Assembly (NCBI RefSeq): GCF_014191775.1
Contig: NZ_JACHXA010000002.1
Location: 248,001 to 312,000 of the forward strand
Direction: 5' to 3'
Source of the DNA: Limibacillus halophilus
GTDB taxonomy: Bacteria; Pseudomonadota; Alphaproteobacteria; Kiloniellales; CECT-8803
Length of the DNA: 64,000 bases
Shown here one piece after another: positions 1,247 through 56,567 of the stretch; positions within the stretch are counted from its first letter, which is position 1; every line of letters begins with the position of its first letter. The notes below the pieces were generated by a model. That model made no database searches, was not told the DNA's origin, and saw nothing but the letters and a program-made list of their open reading frames with translations. Position numbers and translations under genes: made by a program.

Positions 1247-1308
1247 GACCAGAAGCTTTGCCCGGCAAGAAAATACAGTCAACCTTTAAGAGTATTGATA
1301 AGGCTTCT

Positions 1309-4220: not shown

Positions 4221-4386
4221 ACTGAGGGGTGGTTATCTCACCCCCGGGCGAGTCGTGCAAGCGACTCAAGCAACAATTTCGCCCGGTTCGTGTGTGCACC
4301 GCTTGCAATGGATTACACAGAGCCGCGTTAACGGCGGCGCGATTGGGTTCTCCAAAACACGCCGCCGCACAAAACCTTAACCTCGG

Positions 4387-5055: not shown

Positions 5056-5150
5056 CATTACCTCCCAGTTGCAAAAGCTCCCACAGAATGACTTGGCGGT
5101 ATGGTGACCCGATTTCCAGCATAAGGCCAATCACACTCTGGATAGCGCCG

Positions 5151-6362: not shown

Positions 6363-6440
6363 CGTTGTCTCTCCGTCGCTTTCCGATCTGCCTTCAAGAT
6401 ATCGCCCCTATGGAGGTCTACGGTCCGATTTTCTATTCCT

Positions 6441-7364: not shown

Positions 7365-7517
7365 GGTGCACCGGACCGGCAGGAGGTCAAGAGATCAAAA
7401 CCGCAACGACGCGCCCCAGGCTGGCAAGAGGTCGGGTTAATCCGTTAGGCTGATGGATATCGCCTACTGAATTCACAAGGCCCGAAGTTACGACAAACCG
7501 ACAGGAAACGCCTGGGT

Positions 7518-9406: not shown

Positions 9407-9413
9407 TCGAGCC

Positions 9414-10595: not shown

Positions 10596-10693
10596 GGTGC
10601 TGTCTCTTTCCGGTTCGGCTGATAGGGAGTGGACCAAAGCCTAGCCCCACCGCAACCGGATCTGCAACCTGCGCGCAAGCCTTGATGCAACGC

Positions 10694-11530
10694 TCAGTGC
10701 GACATCAGCACCGGCACCGTCATGTGCTTAAGAACTTCGCGAGTGACGCCGCCCAGCACCAGTTCGCGCAACCGCGAATGGCCATAGCCGCCCATGACAA
10801 GCAGATCGCTGCCGCGATCGCTCAAGCGCGAGAGGATGGCGGAAGAAACCCCAAGCTCCGCGGCCTCCAAATGCTGGACCTCGACCTTCACGCCATGGCG
10901 AGCAAGGTGGAGCCCGATATCCGCGCCCGGTTCATCACCATGCACACCGCGGCCAGGGTTGACCGCCACAACGACGACCTGCTCGGCCATCTTCAGCATT
11001 GGCAGGGCGTCGTTGACGGCGCGAGTGGCCTCGCGCCCGCCGTTCCAGGCGATCATTACACGCTTCCCGAAACCCGCGGGCGCGCCAATGTAGGGAATCA
11101 TCAGCACGGGCCTTCCGCAGGTGACAAGCACCTCCTCTGCGACACTGTTGTCGAGCGACGCCGCGTCGTCATCGTCTTGCTGCCCCAGTATGACAAGATC
11201 ACTGTAGCGAGCGTGCAACGAAATTCCCGACGCCAACTCTGCTTCGGCCTTGCGCAGACGCCGAATTTCGTAGCTAACACCGCCCGCGTCGGCCGCAGCT
11301 TTAAACAGCTCGACCGCCCGTCCTTCGACCTCGGTTAGATAGGCGGCTTGCGCCTGCAGTGCGGATTTCGGTATTTGGCTGCGCAGATAGGTTGGCATAG
11401 CCGGCTCGCCCAGCGCGACCAGTCCCGTTAGGTGCGCGCCCGAGCTATTCGCCAGATCGACGGCCGCTTGCACGCGATTCTTGGCGGCCTTGCCGCCATC
11501 GACCTGTACCAAAAGATTTCTAAAGGCCAT
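10694..11530 (-). CDS. Tandem universal stress protein (UspA family)
   Basis: A 278-residue protein built from two Usp domains, about 1-140 and 150-278. The first begins MAFRNLLVQVDGGKAAKNRV. The second has RVMIAWNGGREATRAV and ends with the nucleotide-binding-like loop MGGYGHSRLRELVLGGVTREV, close to the G-x2-G-x9-G pattern of ATP-binding UspA proteins. An AAGGAGAG ribosome binding site lies 7 nt before the ATG. Such proteins respond to stress in the cytoplasm by poorly defined means. It stands alone between the M20 hydrolase and the peptide importer operon. Confidence 0.9.
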   Translation of the reverse strand: MAFRNLLVQVDGGKAAKNRVQAAVDLANSSGAHLTGLVALGEPAMPTYLRSQIPKSALQAQAAYLTEVEGRAVELFKAAADAGGVSYEIRRLRKAEAELASGISLHARYSDLVILGQQDDDDAASLDNSVAEEVLVTCGRPVLMIPYIGAPAGFGKRVMIAWNGGREATRAVNDALPMLKMAEQVVVVAVNPGRGVHGDEPGADIGLHLARHGVKVEVQHLEAAELGVSSAILSRLSDRGSDLLVMGGYGHSRLRELVLGGVTREVLKHMTVPVLMSH

Positions 11531-11634
11531 GACTCTCTCTCCTTATGAAGAGGTGAACCACCTCTTACAGATAAGCAGAGCAGTCTTTGAATAAAGCCTC
11601 ATTGACCTGAATCAATCGACGACGCCGATTGCTT

Positions 11635-12699
11635 CTAGCGGCCGCCCTCGGGTCGCAGCGACGCGGGCAAACGTCCCTCCTCGACGCCGTGGCAACGCAC
11701 CTCCCCCGTACCGACACGCAAGGGTTTGGGGGCCTCACTGCGGCAGCGATCGTTGGCAAAGGGGCAACGGGGATGGAAATGGCAACCGCCCGGAGGTGTG
11801 ATCGGTGACGGCACTTCGCCTGCGATCGGGGTCCTGGCCCGCCCGGACATCTCCAGGTCCGGGATCGCATCGAGCAACATCCGCGTATAGGGATGGCGCG
11901 GCTGGGCAAAGACTTCGCGGGCGGGGCCCCATTCGACAAGGCGGCCGAGATACATCACCCCGATATCGTCGGAGATATGATAGACCACCGCCAGATCGTG
12001 GCTGATGAAGAGATACGTGAGATTGAACTCTCGCTGCAGTTTCTTCATCAGATTCAAAATCTGCGCCTGTACCGATACATCCAGGGCCGAGGTTGGCTCA
12101 TCGCAGATCAGGAACTCCGGTTCGCTGGCCAATGCGCGGGCGATCGAGATGCGTTGGCGCTGACCGCCCGAGAATTCATGCGGGAACTTGATGCTATCTT
12201 CCGGCGACAGGCCGACCAGCGTCAGAAGGTCGGCGACGCGCTCCAAGATAGCCTTTTCGCCGCTGACGAGCCTGTGGAAGCGAATAGGTTCGGCGATGAT
12301 GTTGCCGACCCGCCAACGTGGATTGAGGCTGGCGAAAGGGTCCTGGAAAATCATCTGCAGGCGGCGGCGTACCGGCGCCATTGCCTTGCGCGAATTGAGG
12401 GTTGCCAGATCCAGGCCTTCGATCTCCACCGAACCCGCCGAGGGTCGATACAATCCAACCACCAAACGCGCTACGGTCGACTTACCGCAACCCGACTCGC
12501 CAACCAATGAGAACGTCTTTCCCTTGGGAATTTCCAGCGATAGGTCGTCGACCGCAGTCAGGTGAACTTTCGGCTGGCCCTGCAGGACCCGGTTAAGGAA
12601 CGGCGGCGAGACATCGAAGGTCTTGCGCAACCCCTTGATCCGCAAGGTCGGGCCGGCGGTGGCACTCGTATCCGGTTTCGGCGCCAAGGTATCGCTCAT
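11635..12699 (-). CDS. Peptide ABC importer ATP-binding protein (DppF/OppF type)
   Basis: A 354-residue ATPase subunit of a peptide-type ABC importer, last gene of its operon. It carries Walker A GESGCGKST, signature FSGGQRQRISIARAL and Walker B LICDEPTSALD. The C-terminal oligopeptide region has HPYTRMLLDAIPD and CHFHPRCPFANDRC. The start is the ATG at 12699, which overlaps the stop of the upstream ATPase gene by ATGA. The final residues are RPEGGR. It pairs with the product of the next gene upstream as a heterodimer. Confidence 0.94.
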   Translation of the reverse strand: MSDTLAPKPDTSATAGPTLRIKGLRKTFDVSPPFLNRVLQGQPKVHLTAVDDLSLEIPKGKTFSLVGESGCGKSTVARLVVGLYRPSAGSVEIEGLDLATLNSRKAMAPVRRRLQMIFQDPFASLNPRWRVGNIIAEPIRFHRLVSGEKAILERVADLLTLVGLSPEDSIKFPHEFSGGQRQRISIARALASEPEFLICDEPTSALDVSVQAQILNLMKKLQREFNLTYLFISHDLAVVYHISDDIGVMYLGRLVEWGPAREVFAQPRHPYTRMLLDAIPDLEMSGRARTPIAGEVPSPITPPGGCHFHPRCPFANDRCRSEAPKPLRVGTGEVRCHGVEEGRLPASLRPEGGR

Positions 12700-13721
12700 G
12701 CGCCGCCCTCCTCTTCGATCAACCAGCAAGACGCCAGTGTCTTACCTGCGGGCATCAGACTGGGACGGTCCTGCCGGCAGCGGTCAAAAGCCTGTGGGCA
12801 ACGCGGGTTAAATGCGCAGCCGCGAGGAATTTTGTTCAGGCGCGGCATGGAACCTTCGATCTGCATCAACTCTTCACGGTCTTGGCCGACGAGGGGAATA
12901 GACCCCATCAAACCGACCGTATAGGGATGGCTGGGGCGCTTGATGACTTCCTGCACAGGGCCGATCTCCGCAATTCTTCCGGCATACATCACGGCCACCC
13001 GGTCAGCGGTTTCGGCGATAACTCCCATGTCGTGTGTCACCAGCATCACGGCGGCCCCATGGTCGCGGCAGAGACGCTTGAGAAGTGAGATGATCTGCGC
13101 CTGAATTGACACGTCCAACGCTGTCGTCGGCTCGTCGGCAATAACCAGCTTGGGATTGACGCAAAGCGCCAACGCTATCACCACCCGTTGGCGCATGCCG
13201 CCGGAAAACTGATGAGGATATTGATCGACGCGCCGCTCCGGCGACGGGATGCCGACCTCAGCCAAAAGTTCAATGGCACGCTTGCGGGCCGCCCGCTCGC
13301 TCATGTCCGTATGGGTGCGGATTGTCTCAATCAACTGCTCTCCGACTCTGTAGAGCGGATTGAGGCTGGTGAGCGGATCCTGAAAAACCATCCCGATTTC
13401 CGCGCCGCGCAGGCGGCGCAACTTCTCGTAGGGCAGGTTATCGATGCGCTTGCCCTGGAACAGTACCTGTCCGTCGGCAATACGCCCGGGCGGCTCCAAC
13501 AAACCGATGATTGCAGAGCCGGTAAGCGACTTACCGGCTCCAGACTCGCCGACGACGCCCAGAACCTCTCCCGGCTTGATGTCGAAAGAGACATCGTCAA
13601 CGGCGACAAGCGTGCCGTTGCGGGTCGGAAATTCGATCCGTAGATTGCGCACCTCCAATAAGGCGTCGCTTCCAACGCGGTCTTCGCGGGCGGCTTCCAT
13701 CACTGCTGACGTATCGCTCAT
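12696..13721 (-). CDS. Peptide ABC importer ATP-binding protein (DppD/OppD type)
   Basis: A 341-residue ATPase with Walker A GESGAGKSLT, Q-loop FQDPLTSLNP, signature FSGGMRQRVVIALAL, Walker B VIADEPTTALD and H-loop MLVTHDMGV. The C-terminal CAFNPRCPQAFDRC cluster is the cysteine-bearing motif common in this subfamily. The start is the ATG at 13721, 4 nt after the stop of the upstream permease gene. A GTG lies directly before it. It is coupled by overlap to the DppF-type gene downstream. Confidence 0.94.
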   Translation of the reverse strand: MSDTSAVMEAAREDRVGSDALLEVRNLRIEFPTRNGTLVAVDDVSFDIKPGEVLGVVGESGAGKSLTGSAIIGLLEPPGRIADGQVLFQGKRIDNLPYEKLRRLRGAEIGMVFQDPLTSLNPLYRVGEQLIETIRTHTDMSERAARKRAIELLAEVGIPSPERRVDQYPHQFSGGMRQRVVIALALCVNPKLVIADEPTTALDVSIQAQIISLLKRLCRDHGAAVMLVTHDMGVIAETADRVAVMYAGRIAEIGPVQEVIKRPSHPYTVGLMGSIPLVGQDREELMQIEGSMPRLNKIPRGCAFNPRCPQAFDRCRQDRPSLMPAGKTLASCWLIEEEGGA

Positions 13722-13725
13722 CACG

Positions 13726-14697
13726 TCACCTCAGCTTGGGATTGAGCGCATCGCGCAGCCAATCCCCGAGTAAGTTCACCGCAAGCACGAGAATCGCGAG
13801 CATCGCGCCCGGGAAGATGGTGATCCACCAGAGCCCGGAGAAAAGGAAATCGTTACCGATCCGGATCAGGGTACCCAACGACGGCTGGGTTGTCGGCACG
13901 CCTACACCCAGGAACGATAGGGTCGCCTCCAAGATCACCGCCAGCGCGAGATTGATCGTCGCGATCACAAGAACCGGCCCCATCACATTCGGCAGGACAT
14001 GGCGGATCATGATCAAAAGCGGTGGAATGCCGATGACGCGGGCCGCCTGAACATACTCCTTGTTCTTCTCCACCAGGGTCGATCCGCGCACCGTACGGGC
14101 GTACTGAACCCAAAACGAAAGCCCGATGGACAGCACAAGGACGTAAAACGCCAACTCGTCGTGCTTGGCGCCGCCCAGAAGGCCGCGAAACACACCATCG
14201 ATCAACAGGGCAATCAGGATCGCAGGGAAGGTCAATTGCACTTCCGCAATGCGCATGATGACCGCATCAACCGTGCCGCCCAGGTATCCGCTCAATAGCC
14301 CCAGGGAAATTCCCAGGACCGCCGCGAAGATCACGCTGGCAAAACCGACGCTCAGCGATATGCGTGACCCATAAAGGATCGTCGAGAGAACATCGCGGCC
14401 CTGGTCATCGGTGCCGAGCAGGAACTGCGGATCTCCCTCGGTCGACCAGAAACCGGGAAGCTCCGAGTTCAAAAGATCAAGGGTGGCTGGGTCGAAGGGA
14501 TTATGCGGCGCGATCCAAGGCGCAAACAACGCGGAAAGCATTATGACTGCGGTGACCAGCGCCGCCAGGACCGTTACCTTGGAACGAAAGAATGAGTGCG
14601 CGATATCGCTTTTGGCGGCCCGCCTGGCGCTATCGGCGAAACGGGCCATCAACCCACGCCTGACAAGTGCGTAGTCTGTGGTGCGATCAGCCGTCAT
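13726..14697 (-). CDS. Peptide ABC importer permease (DppC type)
   Basis: A 323-residue permease with an N-terminal cytoplasmic tail, a first transmembrane segment at about residues 44-66 (VLAALVTAVIMLSALFAPWI), and the periplasmic FLLGTDDQGRDVLSTILYGSRISL region. Five more membrane segments follow. The EAA-type loop is around YVQAARVIGIPPLLIMIRHVLPN. The GDWLRDALNPKLR ending is typical. It partners the DppB-type permease, whose stop is 3 bp upstream of this start. Confidence 0.93.
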   Translation of the reverse strand: MTADRTTDYALVRRGLMARFADSARRAAKSDIAHSFFRSKVTVLAALVTAVIMLSALFAPWIAPHNPFDPATLDLLNSELPGFWSTEGDPQFLLGTDDQGRDVLSTILYGSRISLSVGFASVIFAAVLGISLGLLSGYLGGTVDAVIMRIAEVQLTFPAILIALLIDGVFRGLLGGAKHDELAFYVLVLSIGLSFWVQYARTVRGSTLVEKNKEYVQAARVIGIPPLLIMIRHVLPNVMGPVLVIATINLALAVILEATLSFLGVGVPTTQPSLGTLIRIGNDFLFSGLWWITIFPGAMLAILVLAVNLLGDWLRDALNPKLR

Positions 14698-14700
14698 GAC

Positions 14701-15687
14701 CTAGTGCCCCCCCGTCGTCGCACGATCAACCCGCAACCGCGGATCGACCACGTAGTAGAGCATGTCAACAATCAGGTTGATCGTGACGAAAAGGAACGCG
14801 ATCAGCATCAGGTAGGCCGCCATGATGGGAATATCGACGTTCTGCACCGCCTGCAGGAACATCAGTCCCATGCCGGGCCACTGGAAAACCGTTTCCGTGA
14901 TGATGGCAAAAGCAATGATGGAGCCCACCTGCAGTCCTGTAATGGTGATGACCGGCACCAACGTGTTTTTCAAGGCATGACCGTAGTTGATCGCCCGGTC
15001 CGTAAGACCTCTGGCGCGTGCGAACTTGATGTAGTCGGTGCGCATCACCTCCAGCATCTCCGCGCGAACGAGGCGCATGATCAGGGTCATCTGGAAAAGA
15101 CCCAGGGTGATTCCCGGCATGATGATGGCCGCCAGTCCGCTGGGGGTCAAAAGTCCGGTCGTCCAGAAGCCCAGTCGGATCACCTCCCCCCGCCCGAAGG
15201 ACGGCAACAGATGAAGGTTAACCGAGAAGATGAAGATCAGCAGGATGCCTATCAGGAAGGTTGGCAAGGAAATGCCAATCAACGAGATCGTCAGCAGGAA
15301 TTTCGAGATCGGCGATTCCCGGTGCAAGCCGGTGTAGACCCCCATCGGAATCCCGACCAGCAGCGCAAAAAGCGCGGAAATGAAGGACAACTCCAGCGTG
15401 GCCGGCGCGCGTTCGAGGATCAGCTTGGAAACATCCTTTTTATGCTGATAGCTGATACCGAACTCGAACTGCGCGGCATTGAAGAGGAAGCGGCCAAACT
15501 GAAGATAGGCAGGGTCATCGAGCCCTAGGCGCTCGCGCAAGGCGGCGCGTTCGGCCAATGTCGTTTCGATGCCGACCATCTGGTTCACCGGATCGCCGAC
15601 ATAGCGGAACATTGTGAAGGACAGCAGGGCTACCGCCATCATGACGATGAGGGACTGAAGCAACCTTCGGACGATAAAAGCGAACAT
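14701..15687 (-). CDS. Peptide ABC importer permease (DppB type)
   Basis: A 328-residue permease starting MFAFIVRRLLQSLIVMMAVALLSFTMFRYVGDP, shown in part, with the first transmembrane segment at its N-terminus. A large periplasmic loop precedes five more segments. The cytoplasmic EAA-type loop is near MLEVMRTDYIKFARARGL. Compared with the DppB-like gene at 7518 the sequence is clearly different, so the two loci are not recent duplicates. It follows the binding-protein gene after a 124-bp gap that holds a strong hairpin at 15738-15783. Confidence 0.93.
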   Translation of the reverse strand: MFAFIVRRLLQSLIVMMAVALLSFTMFRYVGDPVNQMVGIETTLAERAALRERLGLDDPAYLQFGRFLFNAAQFEFGISYQHKKDVSKLILERAPATLELSFISALFALLVGIPMGVYTGLHRESPISKFLLTISLIGISLPTFLIGILLIFIFSVNLHLLPSFGRGEVIRLGFWTTGLLTPSGLAAIIMPGITLGLFQMTLIMRLVRAEMLEVMRTDYIKFARARGLTDRAINYGHALKNTLVPVITITGLQVGSIIAFAIITETVFQWPGMGLMFLQAVQNVDIPIMAAYLMLIAFLFVTINLIVDMLYYVVDPRLRVDRATTGGH

Positions 15688-15737
15688 CTAGCTCACATGG
15701 CCTGGATAGTGGGAACGGACGAAACGCTGGAGAGGGA

Positions 15738-15783
15738 GAGTACCGGACTACGCGCAGCTTTCTGCTGCGCGCAGCCCGTACTC
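15738..15783 (-). promoter_or_regulatory. Intercistronic hairpin between binding-protein and permease genes
   Basis: The core is a perfect 8-bp inverted repeat CGCGCAGC / GCTGCGCG (15751-15758 and 15764-15771) with a 5-nt loop. Outer arms GAGTAC / GTACTC (15738-15743 and 15778-15783) extend it. No T-run follows on the transcribed strand, so it is unlikely to be a full terminator. Such hairpins often protect the upstream mRNA end or cause partial termination, giving more binding protein than permease. That role is inferred. Confidence 0.6.
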
Positions 15784-15811
15784 TTGCAGATACGGCCTTT
15801 CCAAGCCGCGA

Positions 15812-17410
15812 TCAGTTCTTCGTCACGTAATAGAGCATGAACTGATTGTCCGCACGCTGGGCAAGATCGATGTTGTCCGCCTTACCCCAAGCCAGACCCT
15901 GCTGATGCAGCGGGATCATGCCCCACTCGTCCTGCACGATCTTGTAGGCCTCATGGATCATGGCATCGCGTTTGGTCGGATCGGTCTCGCTCAGGATCAT
16001 GTCCGTTAGCTCATCGACCCGCGCGTTGCAGTAACCGCCGTTGTTGAACTTACCCCGACCGTCACTGCCGGTCTCGTCGCGGCAGATGATCAGGTTGTAG
16101 AGCACGTTCCAGCTGTCGAAGCTGCCCGGCGTCCATCCCAAGAGATAGAACGAGGTATCGTACTTCGGACCCAGCGTCTTGGCGAAATACTGCGCCTTCG
16201 GTTGCGCCAGCAAATCCACCTTCACACCGACCTTGGCGAGCATCGAAACGACCGCCTGACAGATACGCTCGTCGTTGACGTAGCGGTTGTTCGGGCAGTC
16301 CATCGTGACCTCGAAGCCATCCGGATATCCTGCCTCTGCCAGCAGTGCCTTGGCGCGTGCCGGATCATGGGCCGGGCGCTCGAATTCATCCGACCGTGAG
16401 AAAAGGAACGGCGAGACCATGATCGCGGACGGTGTGGCAAGGTTGCGCATCACCTTCTGCTTGATGGCCTCAATATCGATGGCGCGGAAGAACGCCTCAC
16501 GCACACGCACATCCTTAAAGGGGTTTTTGCCCTTCACGTTCGAGTAGAGCAGTTCGTCGCGAAACTGGTCCATACCCAGGAAGATTGTGCGCAGCTCGGG
16601 GCCTGCCAGCACCGAAGTTCCGGCATTGCTGTTGATACGGTCCATATCCTGAACCGGAACCGGATACATCATGTCGACTTCGCCCGACAAAAGCGCCGCA
16701 ACGCGTGTCGCATCGGAGGAGATCGGCGTGAAGATAACCTCAGTCAGATTATGCCGACGCTCGTCCCACCAATCCTCGTTCGGCACGAAAATGGTCTTCA
16801 CATCGGTTTCGCGGCTCGTGATTTTGAACGCACCGGTGCCGTTCGTGTTGAAGGCGGCATAATTTTCCTTGCCTTCGGTCACCGAGGTGGGCTCCGTCGC
16901 GTTGTTCGCCTCGGACCACTCCTTGTCCATGATGTACCAGGTCGACCATTCGTAATAGATGATGGGGTTCGGCTGCTCCGTCACGAAATCAACCGTGTAG
17001 TCATCCACTTTGACGACTTTGGTGTCCGGCGTCAGGCGGGTCTTCATGTCAGACCCATCCTTGCGAACACGTTCGGCGCTGAAGACCACGTCATCCGCGT
17101 TGAAGTCGTTGCCGTTGTGGAACTTTACACCCTTGCGCAAGTGAAACCGCCAGTGCGTCGGTGAAAGCAATTCCCAGCTTTCAGCCAAGCCCGGTGAAAT
17201 TTCGAGATTCGGGCCACGTTGAATCAATCCCTCGTACACATTACCAAGGAAGCCCAAGGTGAAGGTCTCATTCAAAGAATAGGGATCGAGCGATTGCGCG
17301 TCCCCCTGGAACGCCCATTTGAGCGTTTCCGCCTTGGTCGGCGTACCGGCGCCAGCCACCCCTATCGTTAAGGCTATCGCAGCGGCCATTGCTACTTGTT
17401 TGATTCGCAT
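15812..17410 (-). CDS. Peptide ABC importer substrate-binding protein (SBP family 5)
   Basis: A 532-residue periplasmic binding protein, first gene of the operon. A classic signal peptide (MRIKQVAMAAAIALTIGVAGA, quoted in part, cleaved probably after TKA) precedes ETLKWAFQGDAQSLDPYS. Family 5 hallmarks include GNVYEGLIQRGPNLEISPGLAESW (about residues 56-79), RFHLRKGVKFHNGNDFNADDVVFS, DVRVREAFFRAID and the ending region IPLHQQGLAW. These proteins bind peptides, nickel, sugars or other solutes. The ATPase and permease types point to peptides or peptide-like solutes. The gene is divergent from the aminotransferase gene at 17729. Confidence 0.94.
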   Translation of the reverse strand: MRIKQVAMAAAIALTIGVAGAGTPTKAETLKWAFQGDAQSLDPYSLNETFTLGFLGNVYEGLIQRGPNLEISPGLAESWELLSPTHWRFHLRKGVKFHNGNDFNADDVVFSAERVRKDGSDMKTRLTPDTKVVKVDDYTVDFVTEQPNPIIYYEWSTWYIMDKEWSEANNATEPTSVTEGKENYAAFNTNGTGAFKITSRETDVKTIFVPNEDWWDERRHNLTEVIFTPISSDATRVAALLSGEVDMMYPVPVQDMDRINSNAGTSVLAGPELRTIFLGMDQFRDELLYSNVKGKNPFKDVRVREAFFRAIDIEAIKQKVMRNLATPSAIMVSPFLFSRSDEFERPAHDPARAKALLAEAGYPDGFEVTMDCPNNRYVNDERICQAVVSMLAKVGVKVDLLAQPKAQYFAKTLGPKYDTSFYLLGWTPGSFDSWNVLYNLIICRDETGSDGRGKFNNGGYCNARVDELTDMILSETDPTKRDAMIHEAYKIVQDEWGMIPLHQQGLAWGKADNIDLAQRADNQFMLYYVTKN

Positions 17411-48565: not shown

Positions 48566-48639
48566 TGGGGGATAGTTTAGCGGTAGAACTTCCGGCTCTG
48601 ACCCGGACAGCCCTGGTTCGAATCCAGGTCCCCCAGCCA
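48566..48639 (+). tRNA. tRNA-Gln(CTG)
   Basis: A complete 74-nt cloverleaf. The acceptor stem TGGGGGA pairs with TCCCCCA, the discriminator is G, and CCA is encoded. The D stem is GTTT/GAAC with loop AGCGGTA. The anticodon stem TCCGG/CCGGA encloses CTCTGAC, so the anticodon is CTG, reading CAG (glutamine). The T arm is CCTGG-TTCGAAT-CCAGG. The UGGGG start and encoded CCA are typical of bacterial tRNA-Gln. Confidence 0.97.
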
Positions 48640-49036: not shown

Positions 49037-50167
49037 TCAACGGCACCAAGAATCTATAATTTTTTCGTAGAGCATGACGGCTTCGGGAATCTTGTCGACA
49101 AAGCAGTATTCGTCCGTTTGATGCGCAAGCGCGGTCTCGCCCGGTCCCAAAATTACTGTAGGTGCGCATAGCGCAGCGGCTAGAATCGAAGCATCGGTGA
49201 AAAACGGTAAGGTCATGGGACGCGGAACAATCTGAATTTCCTGCGCGACGACTGCGTTTACACATTGAACGAAGGGGTGATTGAAATCCGTTTTGACAGG
49301 ATCAAGGTCCACCTCCGCGTTCAGCCCTACTCCTTCGTCATTGAGGTAAGATTTAAGCTGGCACAAAATCTTTTCGTGAGACTTACGCTCGATCGAGCGA
49401 ATGTCGATTGTGAACTCCGTATAATCTGGCACCGAATTGATATTGAGGCCGCCCCGAACCGTTCCAACATTAAGGCTTGGCGACCCCAAAAGCTCATCGC
49501 GCTTCTCGTTGAATCCGAATTGCTCGAGTTTTGCAATCGCGCGTGACGCCTTATAGACGGCGTTGACACCCTTTTCAGGCATGGACCCATGGGCAGTAAC
49601 GCCAGCAGTCTCACCACGCAACCATAGGGCCCCGCGGTGACCGATGGCAGGCAAATTCGAAGTGGGCTCTGCAACCAGAAGCGCGCTTGCCTTGCCGAGA
49701 GCGCCCTCGATTTCGGCTACATACCGCGATCCATCGCACCCGGTTTCCTCGCCAGCAGTCAGAATCAGCATGAGACCACGGCGCAAACTCTCCGGTTGCT
49801 GGGCGGCTGCCACTGCGCTGGCAACAGCGACCGCAACGCCGCTTTTCATGTCACTGGCGCCCCGTCCATACAGCTTTCCGTCAGCAATCTCCCCGGCTAG
49901 CGGCGCCCTTGTCCAGGGCTGATGCCCAAAGGGCACGGTATCCAGATGCCCAGTCATCGCCAATGGCAACAGACTTTCATCACGGCCGGGCAGACATGAC
50001 ACCAGGGTCGTGCGGCCGTCCGCAAACTCGTAGTAGCTGTTCGCAAAACCCGCTTCTTCAAGCATTGCGCCAAGATGGTGGGCGCAGTCCCTCTCGAACC
50101 CCGGTGGATTGACAGTGTCAAAGCGAATTAGAGCCTGAGTCAGGCTGACGGCATCGGGTATGGTCAT
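49037..50167 (-). CDS. ArgE/DapE-like M20 deacylase in the amide-importer operon
   Basis: A 376-residue M20 metallopeptidase-family protein. The start is the ATG at 50167 (MTIPDAVSLTQAL) with GGGAGG upstream. Metal and catalytic motifs are MTGHLDTVPFG, GRGASDMKSGVAV and TAGEETGCDGS, and the dimerisation domain follows in the middle. The LIRFDTVNPPG start is common in acetylornithine deacetylase-like proteins. A formylpyrimidine deformylase (YlmB) also belongs here, so the acyl group and amine are not known. It is the last gene of the importer operon, 32 bp after the second ATPase gene. Confidence 0.87.
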   Translation of the reverse strand: MTIPDAVSLTQALIRFDTVNPPGFERDCAHHLGAMLEEAGFANSYYEFADGRTTLVSCLPGRDESLLPLAMTGHLDTVPFGHQPWTRAPLAGEIADGKLYGRGASDMKSGVAVAVASAVAAAQQPESLRRGLMLILTAGEETGCDGSRYVAEIEGALGKASALLVAEPTSNLPAIGHRGALWLRGETAGVTAHGSMPEKGVNAVYKASRAIAKLEQFGFNEKRDELLGSPSLNVGTVRGGLNINSVPDYTEFTIDIRSIERKSHEKILCQLKSYLNDEGVGLNAEVDLDPVKTDFNHPFVQCVNAVVAQEIQIVPRPMTLPFFTDASILAAALCAPTVILGPGETALAHQTDEYCFVDKIPEAVMLYEKIIDSWCR

Positions 50168-50199
50168 AGGCAGGTTCCTCCCTGATAGCCGACCCGGCA

Positions 50200-50904
50200 T
50201 CAGATTGCGAGATACTGCTGAACGACGTCGGATTGGGAGACCTCCTGAGTGGTTCCCTTCGCAACCAGAGCGCCTTTTTCGAGAATGATGCAGTGATCGG
50301 CCATGTTGAAGATCATCGGCACGTTCTGTTCAACAATGACGATGGTCATTCCTTCGTTCTTGTTAATTTCCTTCAGGGTCACGCCAATCTGGTGAACGAG
50401 TGTCGGCATGATGCCGTCCGAAGGCTCGTCCAGTAGCATCACCTTCGGGTCGGTCATGAGCCCGCGGCCGATGGCTAACATTTGCTGCTCGCCGCCGCTC
50501 ATGGTGCCGGCCTGCTGGGACATGCGTTCGCCAAGCCTGGGAAAATAGCTAAGGACTTCCTCACTACGATCACGTGGCCGCTTGCCGGCGGCGATCCGCC
50601 CCATCTCCAAATTCTCGCGTACCGTCAGTTGAGGGAAAATTCCTCGCCCCTGGACAACAGTTGTTATGCCACGGCGCGCGCGCTCGTAGGCTTGCAGCCC
50701 ACTGATGTCCTCTCCGTCGAGCCTGATCGCGCCACTGGTCGCTTTAATGAGGCCGGAGAGCGCCCGTATCAAAGTCGTCTTGCCCATGCCATTGCGGCCG
50801 AGCACACCAAGGACCTCGCCCTCCGCGATGGAAAAGGACACCCCCCGGAGCACTTTGATCGCGCCGTATCCAGAATCGAGCGCTTCAACTTCCAAAGACA
50901 TCAT
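50200..50904 (-). CDS. Urea/amide-type ABC importer ATP-binding protein (UrtE/LivF family)
   Basis: A 234-residue ATPase with Walker A GRNGMGKTTL, Q-loop VVQGRGIFPQLTV, signature MSGGEQQMLAIGRGL and Walker B VMLLDEPSDGIMPT. The DGIMP tail after Walker B resembles UrtE rather than LivF (typically EGLAP). The start ATG at 50904 overlaps the stop of the upstream ATPase gene; a second ATG follows directly. It pairs with the UrtD-like ATPase. Confidence 0.9.
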   Translation of the reverse strand: MMSLEVEALDSGYGAIKVLRGVSFSIAEGEVLGVLGRNGMGKTTLIRALSGLIKATSGAIRLDGEDISGLQAYERARRGITTVVQGRGIFPQLTVRENLEMGRIAAGKRPRDRSEEVLSYFPRLGERMSQQAGTMSGGEQQMLAIGRGLMTDPKVMLLDEPSDGIMPTLVHQIGVTLKEINKNEGMTIVIVEQNVPMIFNMADHCIILEKGALVAKGTTQEVSQSDVVQQYLAI

Positions 50905-51620
50905 CAAGCTCCCAAGTAGACTTCGCGCACCTGCGGATCGTTGGACAACTCCTCGAATGAACCTTCCTTGAGGACCTGCCCAAGATGCAGCACCGTGATC
51001 GGTGCCTGGAGGTCGCGAATAAAGTTGATGTCGTGCTCGATAATGACAATCGACAGATTACGGTCCCGCGCCAAGCTCTTGACCAAGTCCCCGGTGGCCG
51101 CAGTTTCCGCAGCCGTCATTCCAGCAGTTGGCTCATCCAAGAGCAGCAATTCCGCTTCGATGCCCAAAAGCATGCCGATCTCAAGCCACTGACGCTGGCC
51201 GTGAGAGAGAAACTGTACCGGAGTGTCCCGCTGTTCCCGCAACCGAACGATATCCAGGACCTCGAGCACGCGGTTTTCACGGCGCTCGCGCGGGGTTGAA
51301 GTTCCCAGCACAGCGAGTTCTATGTTTTCGTAAGCGGTAAGATTGTCGAAGACCGAAGGCGTTTGGAACTTGCGCGCTATGCCGACCCTGGCGCGCTTTC
51401 GCACCGGTAAGCCAGTGATGTCTTGTTCTTTGTAGTAGATTTTTCCAGAGGACGGAGCCAGATGCCCGGAGATCATGCTGATGAAGGTTGTTTTTCCTGC
51501 ACCATTCGGCCCAATGACACTACGGACCTGCCCAGCCTCCAACTGAAAATCAATATCCTTGTTGGCGATCAGGCCGCGAAAGTTCTTCGACAGTCCAGTG
51601 GTTCTCAAAAGTACTGCCAT
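50904..51620 (-). CDS. Urea/amide-type ABC importer ATP-binding protein (UrtD/LivG family)
   Basis: A 238-residue ATPase. Walker A is GPNGAGKTTF and the Q-loop RKFQTPSVFDNLTAYENIEL is close to UrtD. The signature is FLSHGQRQWLEIGML, with SHGQ in place of SGGQ as is usual for UrtD proteins. Walker B is LLLLDEPTAGM. The start ATG at 51620 is preceded by AAGGAGG about 10 nt upstream. Confidence 0.9.
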   Translation of the reverse strand: MAVLLRTTGLSKNFRGLIANKDIDFQLEAGQVRSVIGPNGAGKTTFISMISGHLAPSSGKIYYKEQDITGLPVRKRARVGIARKFQTPSVFDNLTAYENIELAVLGTSTPRERRENRVLEVLDIVRLREQRDTPVQFLSHGQRQWLEIGMLLGIEAELLLLDEPTAGMTAAETAATGDLVKSLARDRNLSIVIIEHDINFIRDLQAPITVLHLGQVLKEGSFEELSNDPQVREVYLGA

Positions 51621-51621
51621 G

Positions 51622-52638
51622 TTAGCCACGCCTCCTTTGCAGAAACTGAAAAAGCTGCACGACGGCACCGGAAAGTCCGGATTTGAAGAAGGCGATTACC
51701 AGGATGAAAATGATCCCCAACAAAAGCTGCCAGTACTCAGGCGTGATTGCGCTCAGATAGTTCGAGAGCGATGAAACCAGAATACCGCCAAGCAGAGCAC
51801 CAAGAAGCGATGCCCGCCCGCCGATGGCTACCCAGACAACAACCTCGGTCGAAAAGAGAACGCCCGCCAATGACGGCGAGACGAAGTTTGCCTGACTCGC
51901 ATAGAGGGCACCCGCAAAGCCGGCAAGGCCTCCGGACAAAGCGAAAACCAGTGTTTTGTATGCGGAAACATTAAAACCAAGGGCGATCACCCGGTCCTCG
52001 TTCTCGCGTATCCCTACCAGCACCTTGCCGACTTTCGAGAGGGTCAGCCAACGAAAGCCCAGATAGCAGAGAACGATCAGCGGTAGGACGAAATAGTAGA
52101 ACGCCACGTCTCCATAGAGCGATACCTCGCCAAGCGGTCCAAAGGTCAGCGACATCCGGTCGACAAAAAGTCCATTCCACCCACCGGTGATTTGCGACTG
52201 GCTGACAGCGATCTGCTCGGCGATGATTGAGAGCGCTAAAGTGATCAGTACGAAGTATGTCGCCCGCACCCCAGCGCTAAAGAGAAAGTAGCCGGCAATC
52301 GCTGCCAGGCCACCGCCAGCCAGAACGGCGACGATTATGCCTAGATAAGCCGCATTGACCGGCAATGCCTGCTGCATCATCAGGCCCATCGCATAGCCGC
52401 CAACAGCAAAGAACGCGGCTTGGCCAAAGCTGAGAATGCCGCCAAAACCCCAAAGCAGGCCGAGTGACATGGCCAGAAGGCCGAACAGCATGTACTGCGG
52501 CAGGATGTAGATCACATAGCCGGAGAAGACGGTTGGCAACAGCGCCAGAAGCGCAAAAACCACCATAGCGACGCCGGTCTCACCGCCCCAACGGCTTCGC
52601 CGGACTGACTTTTCTTGCTTGGAAAGAGTCTCGGACAT
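51622..52638 (-). CDS. Urea/amide-type ABC importer permease (UrtC/LivM family)
   Basis: A 338-residue branched-chain-type permease with about ten hydrophobic segments. Typical stretches are LGLLWGFGGILSFGQAAFFAVGGYAMG (about residues 60-86) and the EAA-like GIRENEDRVIALGFNVSAYKT. I take the ATG at 52638 (MSETLSKQEKS), 8 bp after the previous stop; a TTG lies 12 nt upstream. A hydrophilic, basic N-terminal tail of about 20 residues precedes the membrane part. Confidence 0.9.
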   Translation of the reverse strand: MSETLSKQEKSVRRSRWGGETGVAMVVFALLALLPTVFSGYVIYILPQYMLFGLLAMSLGLLWGFGGILSFGQAAFFAVGGYAMGLMMQQALPVNAAYLGIIVAVLAGGGLAAIAGYFLFSAGVRATYFVLITLALSIIAEQIAVSQSQITGGWNGLFVDRMSLTFGPLGEVSLYGDVAFYYFVLPLIVLCYLGFRWLTLSKVGKVLVGIRENEDRVIALGFNVSAYKTLVFALSGGLAGFAGALYASQANFVSPSLAGVLFSTEVVVWVAIGGRASLLGALLGGILVSSLSNYLSAITPEYWQLLLGIIFILVIAFFKSGLSGAVVQLFQFLQRRRG

Positions 52639-52646
52639 GGCTTGGA

Positions 52647-53501
52647 TCAACGTCCTTTGATCAGACCCTGCGGACGGAAGCGCAGGATCATGATGGCGAT
52701 AAAGAAGACGGCTGCCTGCGCCACCACCTGGTTGGTGAAGAGCGCAAAAAGGGTTTCAGAGCCGCCGATGAAGAAGCTACCCAGCAATGTGCCGCTTAGC
52801 AGTTGCCCGACGCCACCGACGATCACCACAAAGAATGAGCGAACCAGAAAGACATTCCCGATGTAGGGATCAATGCTTAGCATCGGCGCGATCAGCGCCC
52901 CGGCGAGACCGGCCATGAAGGCGCCGAAGCCGAAGACCAGTTTATAAGTAAGCGCGATGTTCAGGCCAAGCAGACTGGCGACTTCGCGATTCTGGATCAA
53001 CGCCCGGATCTTGATTCCGATCGACGTGCGGAAAAACACGAAAGCTGATGCACCGATCAGTAACAGGGTGAAGCCAGCAACGGCGCTGCGGTAGGCCGGT
53101 ATCTTCAAGCCAGCCAACTCGTAAGCACCGGGCAAAGGACTCTCGACATTCCTGAAGTCCGTACCAAAAACGATTTTGATGACCTCGGTGGCAATCAGGA
53201 AGAATGCCCAGGTAAGAAGTAAGGTTTCAAATGGCCGGTCGTAGAAAAATCGGATCACAAGGTGTTCGAAAAGGAGCCCTACGACACATACGCCGAGAGC
53301 AGAAAGCAAGACAGCTAATCCAAAGGGAATCCCGGCCGTGGTTGTCGCCCAGGCAAAATAGGCGCCCAGGGTCAACATCGCGCCGTGCCCCATATTGATA
53401 ACGCCAACCAACCCGTAAATAATTGCCAGTCCAAAGGCGGCCAGGGCCAAGACCAGTGTAATGAGAGTGGCGTCAACGGCGATGCTCAACGCCAAGTTCA
53501 T
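52647..53501 (-). CDS. Urea/amide-type ABC importer permease (UrtB/LivH family)
   Basis: A 284-residue LivH-type permease with eight or so membrane segments. ALAAFGLAIIYGLVGVINMGHGAMLTLGAY lies at about residues 19-48, and IGIKIRALIQNREVASLLGLN forms the cytoplasmic coupling loop near residues 165-185. The ending GLIKGR is short. Length matches LivH more than the long UrtB form with an extended N-terminal domain. It follows the binding-protein gene after a strong hairpin. Confidence 0.9.
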   Translation of the reverse strand: MNLALSIAVDATLITLVLALAAFGLAIIYGLVGVINMGHGAMLTLGAYFAWATTTAGIPFGLAVLLSALGVCVVGLLFEHLVIRFFYDRPFETLLLTWAFFLIATEVIKIVFGTDFRNVESPLPGAYELAGLKIPAYRSAVAGFTLLLIGASAFVFFRTSIGIKIRALIQNREVASLLGLNIALTYKLVFGFGAFMAGLAGALIAPMLSIDPYIGNVFLVRSFFVVIVGGVGQLLSGTLLGSFFIGGSETLFALFTNQVVAQAAVFFIAIMILRFRPQGLIKGR

Positions 53502-53546
53502 GCAATTTCTCCCTCCAATGAAACACCGACACCTGATTAGAAAGTA

Positions 53547-53591
53547 ACGGGTGCCCCCGTAGTCGGAGAAAACTCCGGCGGGGGCACCCGT
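53547..53591 (-). promoter_or_regulatory. Very strong intercistronic hairpin after the binding-protein gene
   Basis: A perfect 13-bp stem, ACGGGTGCCCCCG (53547-53559) with its complement at 53579-53591, encloses an inner CGGAG-AAAA-CTCCG hairpin. It lies 12 bp after the binding-protein stop and 45 bp before the first permease start. There is no T-run. It likely limits read-through into the permeases or protects the upstream message. Confidence 0.65.
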
Positions 53592-53603
53592 GCACGCTCC
53601 CGG

Positions 53604-54851
53604 CTAGAGCGGCAGGTCGCAGCGGGCATCCAAGGGTTCGACACCTTCAAACGACTGCACTTCGGTGAACATATCGTTCACATCGGTCCAGTTCGGTCGA
53701 ACCTGCATCAGGTAAGATGGCAACACAATTTGATTGTCGATTTCGCGCATACGTACCGGTCCCTGGGGCGCACCGTCAAACTCGATGCCCTTCAGGTTGG
53801 CGCGCAGTGATTCTGTGCTGACCTCGCCGGCCTTTTCAATGGCCCGTGCAGCCATATGGGCGGCATTGTACATGGAGACGCCGACGGTGTTCATCAGCGC
53901 GTTCTCGCCATACTTGGCTTTGAAACGCTTGAGAAAACCTGCATTGTTCGGGTGTTTGATCGACATGAAATAGTCGAAGCTCACATAATCGTTGGCGGAT
54001 ACCTCCGGCCCAAGACCGGAAGTAACGACTTCTTCGTCGTCCACTGTCCACAGAGCAAAATCTTCCTTCATTCCGGCTGCCGCAAATTGCTGACGGAAGT
54101 TGACGGTATCGCTGCCGGTCAGGCTGTGGAAGATGATGTCTGCGCCGGAACTGCGAATATCGCGAAGCACGGATTCATATTGCGGTGTGTTGAAGGGGAT
54201 ATAGACCTCGCCGACAACCTCACCGCCCAGATCTGCAAGCTTCTGCTTGGTTACCTGGTTGGTTACGCGCGGCCAGGCGTAATCCGAGCCAATCATGAAG
54301 AACTTTTTACCAAACTTGTTCATCATGTATTCCATGTGCGGCCAGACTTGCTGCGTTGGCTCCGGCCCGAACATGAAGATGTTGGGATTACACACACCGG
54401 GATAGTATTCCTTCTCCTGACCCTCGTAGAAGGTCGGGTAGAGCAGCACTTTGTCGGCGCCTTTAACGACCGGTCCCGCAGCATTTCGCTCGGCGCTGGA
54501 AAAGGTCCCCGCCAGGAAATCCACACGCTCCTGCCGAATCAGACGGTTTGCCTGCTCCACCACGATGCGCGGTTCAGTTTTCGAATCGCCGACAACCAGT
54601 TCCAGCGGCCGACCAAGAACGCCACCAGCAGCATTGATTTCTTCCGCTGCGAGTTCGAAACCCGCGATGTGCGCCTTTCCGTACACGGTCCATGCACCTG
54701 TGAGCGGCGAGATGATACCAACCTTGATCGCTTCGGCGGCACGGGCCGAACGGATAATGGCTGGTGCGGCGAACGCCGCAGCCGTTACGCCCAACGTCTG
54801 TAATGCACGTCGGCGTGAAACCGGCTTCTTGGTTAAAATCGTGTCTCTCAT
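53604..54851 (-). CDS. Urea/amide-type ABC importer substrate-binding protein
   Basis: A 415-residue periplasmic binding protein of the branched-chain/urea/amide class. The N-terminus has SRRRALQTLGVTAAAFAAPA, a twin-arginine-like signal, with cleavage likely near ARAAEA. The mature protein begins IKVGIISPLTGAWTVYGKAH. GTFSSAERNAAGPVVKG and IGSDYAWPRVTNQ resemble UrtA and short-chain amide binding proteins (FmdD, AmiC) more than Leu/Ile/Val binders. The ligand is unknown, but an amide is favoured by the neighbouring amidase gene 61 bp upstream. Confidence 0.88.
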   Translation of the reverse strand: MRDTILTKKPVSRRRALQTLGVTAAAFAAPAIIRSARAAEAIKVGIISPLTGAWTVYGKAHIAGFELAAEEINAAGGVLGRPLELVVGDSKTEPRIVVEQANRLIRQERVDFLAGTFSSAERNAAGPVVKGADKVLLYPTFYEGQEKEYYPGVCNPNIFMFGPEPTQQVWPHMEYMMNKFGKKFFMIGSDYAWPRVTNQVTKQKLADLGGEVVGEVYIPFNTPQYESVLRDIRSSGADIIFHSLTGSDTVNFRQQFAAAGMKEDFALWTVDDEEVVTSGLGPEVSANDYVSFDYFMSIKHPNNAGFLKRFKAKYGENALMNTVGVSMYNAAHMAARAIEKAGEVSTESLRANLKGIEFDGAPQGPVRMREIDNQIVLPSYLMQVRPNWTDVNDMFTEVQSFEGVEPLDARCDLPL

Positions 54852-54912
54852 GATTGACCTCTCCTATCCAATCTGGAATGGCTTCTGGTTGGGGTGAGCC
54901 CGTTTGTGGTTT

Positions 54913-55797
54913 CTAATACCAGCCAGGTTCGTGCGGGCTTCCGAGCATTTCCTCGTAGAGATCGGTACGCCGATCCCGGAGGGGCTGGTTGTATTCGTTC
55001 CAGTTACGTTTACGGCGCGCGTCGGCAAGGTTTGCCTCTGCATAGAGGATCTCCTCCTTGTCGGCACTCGCAGGTCCAGCGATCGGCCAGCCTGTATGAC
55101 TGGTGATCAAACTCTGCCCCTCGAAGGGTTGGCCACGCTCTGTGCCAATCCGATCAGCGGCAGCAATGAATACTGAATTGCAGTGAGAGGCGGCCATGAC
55201 CAGCGTATTGGCCATAGCGCGTTCGCCTTTGGCTTGCCCTGGGATGGGGACCCAGTTAGTAGGCACGCAGACAATATCCGCACCCTGCAGGGCGGCAAGG
55301 CGGAAGCTTTCGGGGAACCAGCTATCGTAGCAAATATTGCAGCCGATCCGACCGAGTGGCGTTCTGAAGACCGGGAAACCAAGATCACCCGGTTCGAAAA
55401 ACAGGTTCTCTTCGTTCCAGAGGTGCACCTTGCGGAAGGTGCCAACGTAACCCTCCGGGCCTATGACGACGGCGCTATTGTAAAGGCTGTCTCCTTCACG
55501 CTCGTTGATCCCTGCGACAATATGCAAACCGTGTTTGTTTGCGACTGCACACCAGGCGTCGCAGGTTTCGCCACCTGGCACTTCCTCTGAAAGCGCAAAG
55601 GCTTCATCGCGATCATTGAAGACGTATCCAGAGTTGCAGAGTTCGGGCAAAACCACGAGTTCTGCTCCATTCGCAGCAGCTTCCTCAATTAGTTCGACGC
55701 TGCGTCGGATATTCCTTTTCTTGTCGCCTACGATGGGTTCCATCTGGATGCACGCGATCTTCACAATGGCCTCGCGGCGACCCTTCTTGTCAGCCAT
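54913..55797 (-). CDS. Nitrilase-superfamily carbon-nitrogen hydrolase (amidase-type)
   Basis: A 294-residue cytoplasmic hydrolase, first gene of the importer operon. The Glu-Lys-Cys triad is E52 in VVLPELCNSGY, K123 in FRKVHLW and C156 in CNICYDSWFPE. GGAGG lies 10 nt before the ATG. No N- or C-terminal extra domain is present, which excludes NAD synthase or Nit-Fhit types. Family members hydrolyse aliphatic or carbamoyl amides; the cyanide-derived nitrilase branch looks less likely. Encoded together with an amide-type importer, it probably hydrolyses the imported compound. Confidence 0.88.
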   Translation of the reverse strand: MADKKGRREAIVKIACIQMEPIVGDKKRNIRRSVELIEEAAANGAELVVLPELCNSGYVFNDRDEAFALSEEVPGGETCDAWCAVANKHGLHIVAGINEREGDSLYNSAVVIGPEGYVGTFRKVHLWNEENLFFEPGDLGFPVFRTPLGRIGCNICYDSWFPESFRLAALQGADIVCVPTNWVPIPGQAKGERAMANTLVMAASHCNSVFIAAADRIGTERGQPFEGQSLITSHTGWPIAGPASADKEEILYAEANLADARRKRNWNEYNQPLRDRRTDLYEEMLGSPHEPGWY

Positions 55798-55862
55798 TCT
55801 TTGAATGCCTCCCTTACGTTAATGATCTTCGCTAGTCATGTTTCCATTGATTTTATCTATGG

Positions 55863-55875
55863 TCAAGTCACTTGA
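55863..55875. promoter_or_regulatory. Candidate operator in the amidase / regulator divergent region
   Basis: A perfect 13-bp palindrome TCAAG-TCA-CTTGA lies between the divergent starts at 55797 and 55992. ATTGATT (55846-55852) and AATCAAT (55881-55887) flank it. The region is clearly AT-rich compared with neighbours. It is a natural site for the HTH-cupin regulator to control both genes, but binding is inferred. Confidence 0.4.
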
Positions 55876-55991
55876 ATTTTAATCAATCATCTGGATCAAT
55901 AGATTTAGAGAGTGTGTGTGATTGCGCAAAGCTTTGGCTGAGTGTAAGGAACCGCCTCAGATATTTTTGAAGGTTGAAAACAGGATTACGG

Positions 55992-56567
55992 ATGCCTCAC
56001 GGCACAGAGTTCAAGAATCTAGGAACAAAACTCAGGCAAGCGCGTCGTACAAAGCGCCTCACTCTGAAGATAGTGGCCGAACGTGTAGGCTGCTCCGAAA
56101 GCATGCTGTCGAAGATCGAATGCGAAAAGACGGTGCCGTCTTTGCGGATGCTGCACCGGATAGTATCGGTGTTGGATACGAGCATCAGTGTCTTGTTTTC
56201 AGAAGAAAGCGGCGGCGACGCCCATATCTATCGCAGTGGCCAACGGCCTGTGGTGATCATCGACGATGAGAACGCCCAGAATTTAATTCGCCTGGAGCGA
56301 CTGGTTCCTCGGATTGACGACCAGATTATCGATGGCAATGTGCACATCATTGGCCCTGGTGCCTACAATGGTGGTGAGATCAATCATCTGGGCCAGGAAG
56401 TAGGCTTCGTGCTGGAAGGGACCTTTGAACTGCAAGTGGGCGCCGAAAAATACCTTCTTAATCAAGGTGATTCTTTCTTCTTCCGCTCTGACCTGCCGCA
56501 CAGCTATCGAAACCCTGGAAACGTCACGGCGAAAGTAATTTGGATCAATTCGCCACCGACCTTCTAA
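55992..56567 (+). CDS. HTH-cupin (XRE family) transcriptional regulator
   Basis: A 191-residue regulator starting at the ATG at 55992 (MPHGTEFKNLG), with AGGA upstream; a TTG lies 18 nt earlier. Residues about 10-65 form an XRE helix-turn-helix (LTLKIVAERVGCSESMLSKI with the recognition helix). Residues about 105-185 form a cupin with GPGAYNGGEINHLGQEVGFVL, GTFELQVG and FFFRSDLPHSYRNPG. Such proteins sense small ligands and usually repress catabolic genes such as puuR-like polyamine sets. Being divergent from the amidase-importer operon, it most likely controls that operon. Confidence 0.9.
   Translation: MPHGTEFKNLGTKLRQARRTKRLTLKIVAERVGCSESMLSKIECEKTVPSLRMLHRIVSVLDTSISVLFSEESGGDAHIYRSGQRPVVIIDDENAQNLIRLERLVPRIDDQIIDGNVHIIGPGAYNGGEINHLGQEVGFVLEGTFELQVGAEKYLLNQGDSFFFRSDLPHSYRNPGNVTAKVIWINSPPTF

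Follow-up and report, generated by a model that had tools for sequence, protein, structure and literature searches.

The window analysed here is a 64,000-nucleotide stretch of the Limibacillus halophilus genome (NCBI RefSeq assembly GCF_014191775.1, contig NZ_JACHXA010000002.1, positions 248,001 to 312,000). On its minus strand lies a gene cluster encoding, in reading order, a nitrilase-superfamily C-N hydrolase, a solute-binding protein, two permeases, two ATPases and an M20 deacylase, and a regulator combining a helix-turn-helix (HTH) and a cupin domain is encoded divergently (Table 1). An initial annotation made from the sequence alone had placed the eight genes in this arrangement, which was borne out by the open reading frames (ORFs) and by Pfam and NCBIfam searches. 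Both databases bore out the annotated family of all eight genes, and the Pfam scan took in nine window proteins.

Table 1 Features of the operon, its divergent regulator and the region between them (window positions; scores in bits where a cut-off is given).
Feature	Position	Strand	Basis
M20 (ArgE/DapE-like) deacylase	49037..50200	-	Pfam M20 8e-33, M20_dimer 1.3e-21; likely start ATG 50167
UrtE-like ATPase	50200..50907	-	TIGR03410 254.1 (cut-off 285.8)
UrtD-like ATPase	50904..51620	-	TIGR03411 271 (cut-off 304.1)
UrtC-like permease	51622..52650	-	TIGR03408 216.8 (cut-off 296.2)
UrtB-like permease	52647..53501	-	TIGR03409 202.7 (cut-off 250.3)
Hairpin between binding-protein and permease genes	53548..53590	-	Perfect 12-bp arms, 53579-53590 and 53548-53559
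UrtA/AmiC-like solute-binding protein	53604..54851	-	Peripla_BP_6 4.3e-84; TIGR03407 259.6 (cut-off 492.75)
Nitrilase-superfamily C-N hydrolase	54913..55797	-	CN_hydrolase (PF00795) 1.3e-53; E52-K123-C156
Predicted operator of the HTH-cupin regulator, TCAAGTCACTTGA	55863..55875	.	Conservation and -35 overlap
HTH (XRE)-cupin regulator, divergent	55974..56567	+	HTH_31 4.5e-10, Cupin_2 4.9e-18

ATG 51620 is a more likely start of the UrtD-like ATPase than GTG 51668, and the M20 start in Table 1, which is preceded by the ribosome-site-like run GGGAGGAA, is more likely than ATG 50200. The regulator ORF begins at TTG and has an alternative ATG inside it at 55992. The genes from the UrtB-like permease to the M20 enzyme overlap or almost touch, and the first three operon genes are set apart by gaps of 61 and 102 bases; on this packing the nitrilase-to-M20 run is likely transcribed as one mRNA. 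The 102-nt gap, which holds the hairpin, folds with a minimum free energy of -44.4 kcal/mol (z -2.43, 6 of 200 shuffles as good). The hairpin is a possible mRNA processing or attenuation point and may set unequal amounts of the binding protein and the permease products.

Transporter and hydrolase families

All five transporter parts scored below the NCBIfam UrtA to UrtE cut-offs (Table 1). Mutation of W120, S122, Q144, Y190 or N246 in UrtA abolishes or strongly lowers urea binding (PMC10392092), and the eight conserved urea-site residues taken from that paper served as the test of UrtA membership. In the alignment, W120, Q144, N246 and S274 are replaced in the window protein by F117, F141, T245 and T269, respectively, while S122, Y141, E146 and Y190 are retained. 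Across a 15-member family alignment F117 is invariant, position 141 is F or W, and T245 is conserved except in locus L031, where it is V. The lack of urease that the initial annotation reported for the window holds across the 3.48-Mb genome for the urease alpha family (PF00449), which gave no match with 7 candidates scored; urea amidolyase was not searched for. The predicted structure of the binding protein (mean predicted local distance difference test score 85.5) was nearest to UrtA and AmiC, almost tied at Z 45.6 to 44.5, and the model comparison cannot separate urea from amides as ligand. Because of the scores under the five Urt cut-offs, the replaced urea-binding residues and the genome without urease alpha, a urea system is improbable. 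The evidence favours transport of an amide-type compound over that of urea, and, as in Urt-type amide importers, the Urt-like importer adjoins genes for C-N (amide-type) hydrolases.

The intact E52-K123-C156 triad claimed for the nitrilase-superfamily enzyme was verified, the residues being present and aligned with those of an archaeal nitrilase of solved structure; the nearest solved structure is Pyrococcus nitrilase 3ivz. Archaeal nitrilase was also the best NCBIfam name (240.4 against a cut-off of 500), followed by AguB (172.6 against an equivalog cut-off of 410.25). In the M20 enzyme the Peptidase_M20 and dimerisation Pfam domains were both found, and the best NCBIfam matches, DapE/ArgE, remained under cut-off (TIGR01910, 213.1 against 217.6). 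The motifs GHLDTV, GRGASDMKSG, AGEETG, VAEPTS and LAHQTDE are present in this enzyme, and we take them to have metal-site roles.

Gene neighbourhoods of the importer and the hydrolases

A scan of 84,980 species genomes, using two peptides that reach close relatives only, returned 16 binding-protein loci. L018 and L032 appear to duplicate genomes G033 and G218. L019 is a locus of Rhodovibrio sodomensis, and L023 and L024, which share 99% identity over 5 kb, were both recovered in a single metagenome bin. The bin holding these two importer copies is labelled Euryarchaeota; our guess is that it is mixed. Upstream genes were counted in 14 loci, leaving out L024 and L028, in which fewer than 300 bases precede the binding-protein gene. 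Downstream genes were counted in 10, leaving out L019, L022, L030 and L033 (UrtE incomplete) and L023 and L024 (ending soon after UrtE).

In 10 of the 14 loci the gene immediately preceding the binding protein is a nitrilase gene. The remaining four (L021, L026, L031 and L032) have no nitrilase. Three of these four have an amidase-signature or FmdA gene, L026 and L032 being close relatives, which suggests that such enzymes perform the same job as the nitrilase, amide hydrolysis. The L031 formamidase passes its cut-off (596.7 vs 500), and the L015/L032 amidase passes that of PRK07235 (739 vs 545). Six of the 10 loci have a C-N hydrolase as the next same-strand gene after UrtE: M20C in L018, an amidase-signature enzyme in L026, L027 and L032, an asparaginase in L029 and FmdA in L031. 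The other positions hold a porin (L021), a DUF2391 gene (L025), an ORF without a Pfam match (L028) or an opposite-strand gene (L020), and the M20 enzyme is in none of the ten. Conservation of this kind supports a true link between the importer and C-N hydrolases, as the initial annotation proposed. The fixed two-step breakdown that it attached to this link was not supported, nor did the same seven-gene order recur among the ten relatives, where other hydrolase families take the place of M20. Since the nitrilase is kept with the importer while the last gene is exchanged, the compared loci do not form a fixed two-enzyme, seven-gene unit.

The nitrilase profile matched 7 of 61 genomes of the order, and all seven nitrilases adjoin a five-part ATP-binding cassette (ABC) importer. 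A UrtA-like protein stands beside the nitrilase in two (the window and G033); in the remaining five the neighbouring importer is a distinct one of branched-chain type, with binding proteins 28-33% identical, and is accompanied by amidase-signature genes, and M20C, DUF1028 or FmdA each occur in one or two of those five loci. The HTH-cupin regulator (60-61% identical) was detected in L053 and L055 and not in L051, L052 or L054. DUF1028 genes lie within importer-amidase-nitrilase runs at 11929-12672 of L053 (Pfam) and 12561-13304 of L054 (by similarity to L053).

Ten M20 loci were read (the window, L030, L039-L042 and L089-L092), and ABC importer genes adjoin M20 in all except L040 and L089. L091 is a cluster much like that of the window and encodes an HTH-cupin protein (42% identical, same strand), a Peripla_BP_6 binding protein, four further importer genes and M20, with nitrilase absent. 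The eight importer-linked loci, this nitrilase-free cluster and the predicted operator preceding the L041 M20 gene lend some support to the view that M20 belongs to import-linked scavenging and is not tied to the nitrilase. A second M20 gene of the window genome (71%) belongs to the L039 cluster (429-10855), which comprises a sugar-type ABC importer, a GMC oxidoreductase and, judged by eye, a Rieske-like enzyme.

The binding protein is rare in genome samples: at E 1e-60 it matched in 3 of 58 genomes, one of them the window genome and another with only 35% matches, and at E 1e-90 in 2 of 385 genomes from the class, again including the window genome. Among 398 genomes of the phylum the window genome alone matched the profile at E 1e-120, and plasmid records contained no relative at E 1e-60. 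A tRNA-Gln gene (window 48566-48639) lies about 400 bases past the operon 3' end, and the guanine-cytosine content is 0.551 against 0.589 to the left. These features and the patchy distribution hint at an acquired segment; a flanking repeat was sought and no convincing one was found.

At Rfam gathering thresholds only a tRNA matched in the window, which therefore shows no known riboswitch (e.g. thiamine). A thiamine riboswitch would have suited a formylpyrimidine pathway. AmiR/ANTAR genes lie upstream of the importer in L020 (6142-6861) and L027 (8035-8769), where the HTH-cupin regulator was not detected, which suggests antitermination control in those lineages. Elsewhere in the window (11635-17410), ORF layout shows a Dpp/Opp-type importer with a family-5 binding protein.

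The regulator and a conserved palindrome

The HTH-cupin regulator has the domain pair and divergent layout of local XRE-cupin repressors. Its best NCBIfam name was PuuR, at 81.8 bits against a cut-off of 211. The divergent promoter contains the 13-bp palindrome TCAAGTNACTTGA, which was found in five of the six regulator-bearing promoter regions compared. The form TCAAGTSACTTGA is common to the window, L019, L053 and L055, and L018 has the same sequence with T in the centre. No exact copy of TCAAGTNACTTGA occurs in the 22 loci where the regulator was not detected, which cover 348,707 bases with some overlap, and none of 179 permuted half-sites matched the palindrome counts in the first or second locus set. 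At L041 an exact copy preceding an M20 relative (50%) was seen before the corresponding regulator (53%) was found; in this genome, G224, the regulator lies about 11 kb from the operator copy on the same contig.

A regulator search of 385 genomes of the class at E 1e-35 gave 8 positive genomes, the window genome included. Five of these (G401, G352, G333, G135 and G184) are independent of motif discovery, and of their five exact copies in 23 Mb, three fall in regulator regions, one in G401 and two in G333 (P about 9e-7). When 12 genomes were examined, a set that includes the motif-discovery genomes, 8 of 10 exact copies lay in such clusters; the window genome has a single exact copy.

Read toward the target, the site ends in TTGACA in 5 of 11 sites (L018, L053, L055, L041 and the L071 site before M20C). 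The end of the window operator overlaps a -35-like TTGACC on the operon strand, and the remaining sites have other versions; the -10 partners of the 11 sites are mostly weak. A site overlapping the -35 box is in line with what is described for Pseudomonas, where XRE-cupin proteins are local repressors with palindromic sites thought to block the promoter (PMC7901475). The window regulator resembles them in its domain pair, divergent neighbour, palindromic predicted site and presumed local action. Unlike theirs, its operator is predicted from conservation only, and the same operator stands beside other importers and hydrolases elsewhere.

Several observations weigh against the operator reading and the operon function proposed below. 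L042 (G072) holds only a version with 3 mismatches, G352 and G135 have one-mismatch copies only, on the 3' side of the regulator gene, and G184, whose regulator is 37% identical, has no copy near it. L091 likewise is without an operator copy, the best sequence around its regulator having 3 mismatches. Two of the exact copies in the 12 genomes fall away from any such cluster, the reversed control pattern is present 3 times in the same genomes, and at up to one mismatch the window genome shows no excess of the site over the control (3 vs 3). The -10 partner in the window is poor (AAACAT). The same palindrome is also the predicted site of ChlR, an unrelated MerR-type regulator of Enterococcus faecalis (PMC5971576), so the letters alone do not name their protein; this likeness was taken as chance similarity. 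Lastly, a crude sigma-54 scan of the six promoter regions gave no site upstream of the window operon and one weak site (L042), and nothing in the DNA therefore links the window operon to nitrogen limitation.

No open-licence paper was found that ascribes this operator to an XRE-cupin regulator or that joins an XRE/cupin regulator with an amidase. The operator looks new for this type of regulator.

Two of the independent genomes place the site beside other gene sets. The L071 cluster of G333 (4643-12598) contains genes for an XRE-cupin protein, a cyanuric-acid amidohydrolase (over its cut-off), an amidase-signature enzyme, an 8-oxoguanine-deaminase-like enzyme, M20C and an NMT1-type importer, and its two exact copies precede the importer gene and M20C; the second regulator copy of G333 (L072) has no site. 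The L068 cluster of G401 (3680-10171) contains genes for creatininase, an arginase-family enzyme, a family-3 importer, DUF1989 and an XRE-cupin protein, and one exact operator copy. This copy follows the arginase-family gene at the start of the family-3 binding protein, just inside the longest ORF of the latter, whose gene start is thus uncertain. The arginase-family product scored over the TIGR01230 agmatinase cut-off and is 59% identical to that of L018, and the cluster is a possible guanidino-compound pathway.

Given these neighbourhoods, a tentative extension is that an XRE-cupin lineage keeps its operator while importers and C-N hydrolases are swapped, forming a transferable control kit for nitrogen scavenging that answers one shared signal class. 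The importers concerned are Urt-like, Liv-like, NMT1-type and SBP_bac_3-type, and the hydrolases are nitrilase, M20 and M20C, with amidase-signature, arginase-family and AtzD-type enzymes beside them. The signal would be, for example, amides, ureides or a common breakdown product.

Proposed function and alternatives

Urt-like amide importers beside amidases have already been remarked on for Bradyrhizobium blr0968-0973 (PMC3098086). Further examples are the short-chain-amide importer fmdCABDEF of Methylophilus (reviewed in PMC10781810) and amiE-fmdAB-urtABCDE of a Pseudomonas veronii strain able to grow on formamide and acetamide (PMC13209695). The window operon shares with these systems a high-affinity ABC importer beside amide-hydrolysis genes, which is urea-transporter-like in Bradyrhizobium and P. 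veronii. It differs from them in its hydrolases, an uncharacterised branch of the nitrilase superfamily and an M20 deacylase, in being without an FmdA-family gene (Pfam scan) and in having an HTH-cupin regulator where theirs is FmdB or AmiC/AmiR. With UrtABCDE it shares five subunits, the A-B-C-D-E order and the binding-protein fold, and it is set apart by the cut-offs, urea residues and urease alpha result described above. AmiC (1pea, 1qnl) resembles the window binding protein in fold, in about 30% identity and in a YPT-YEG motif in the alignment; AmiC is a sensor for AmiR, whereas the window protein belongs to an importer operon with no AmiR-like protein among the nine scanned. The open-licence literature yielded no paper on clusters of an amide transporter with a nitrilase, and a paper on an acesulfame amidase (PMC10413263), where the importer type is unrelated, was not used. 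The window operon is a variant of the Urt-type amide importer systems that carries a different hydrolase pair and a different regulator.

We consider it probable that the cluster is a nitrogen-scavenging operon under a local XRE-cupin repressor, combining non-urea amide import with C-N hydrolysis and having M20 as an extra hydrolase. The genes and their families, the catalytic residues, the gene packing, the shared travel of nitrilase and importer and the conserved palindrome are read directly from sequence; the substrate class, the repression and induction, the direction and order of the reactions and the role of M20 are inferred. The XRE-cupin repressor would occupy the palindrome and so cover the -35 box in front of the nitrilase gene, keeping the operon off until the imported compound or one of its products is bound by the cupin domain. 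A small carboxamide-type compound, not urea, would then be collected by the binding protein and imported by the UrtBCDE-like complex, and the nitrilase-superfamily enzyme would hydrolyse its amide C-N bond to release ammonia. M20, as a lineage-specific extra hydrolase, would take an acyl or similar group off an amino nitrogen, acting on the nitrilase product or on another compound brought in by the same importer. The operator would be reused by other nitrogen-scavenging gene sets. Against this proposal stand the nitrilase scores under both the AguB and archaeal nitrilase cut-offs, the lack of a nitrilase in 4 of the 14 loci and the detection of the regulator in just 2 of them (L018 and L019).

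An alternative that we regard as rather unlikely has the nitrilase and M20 acting in turn on one imported compound, such as an N-acylated amino-acid amide or an N-carbamoyl compound. The two genes do lie in one tight run, and the gammaproteobacterial L030, the one locus among the 16 with a window-type M20 (46%), has it upstream, beside two nitrilases and with the same importer. The regulator was also on the same contig in two of three other genomes with a close M20 (of 289; rough P 0.0015, with two overlapping samples pooled). However, M20 ends the operon in none of the ten relatives, where other hydrolase families fill the position, and M20 relatives also occur without nitrilase and with Dpp-, NMT1- or sugar-type importers. 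Of four further genomes of the order with a close M20, the regulator was in the stretch read in only one (G015).

Breakdown of guanidino, ureido or polyamine compounds, with the nitrilase acting like N-carbamoylputrescine amidase and the regulator like PuuR, is improbable. AguB and PuuR are the second-best and best names of the two proteins, both far under cut-off. The arginase-family genes of L018 and L068 exceed the TIGR01230 agmatinase cut-off while staying under that of NF002564, L068 also has creatininase and DUF1989, and M20C ureido-type hydrolases occur in L018, L053 and L071. The scan of window proteins near the operon showed no arginase-family enzyme, and the loci exchange their enzymes too readily to represent a single pathway.

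Uptake or detoxification of nitriles, the first enzyme being a real nitrilase, is very unlikely. Archaeal nitrilase is both the best solved structure and the best NCBIfam name, and the PRK07235 amidase of relatives is presumably of a type belonging to nitrile hydratase clusters, but the nitrilase score is less than half of its cut-off and the FmdA and amidase-signature genes at the nitrilase-less L031, L026 and L032 belong to amide-hydrolase families. That the system is a genuine urea importer which, in place of urease, supplies another urea-degrading enzyme is scarcely credible: fold and sequence of the binding protein are nearest to UrtA, but the cut-offs, the replaced urea residues, the genome without urease alpha (urea amidolyase again lying outside the search) and the presence of other C-N hydrolases instead all speak against it.

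The non-urea amide reading sets apart a group of importers that resemble urea transporters and very likely transport something other than urea. The operator could serve to locate further nitrogen-scavenging gene sets and help to screen for their inducers. If the operator is truly shared, a single reporter strain could show at once which class of inducer acts on several unrelated importers.

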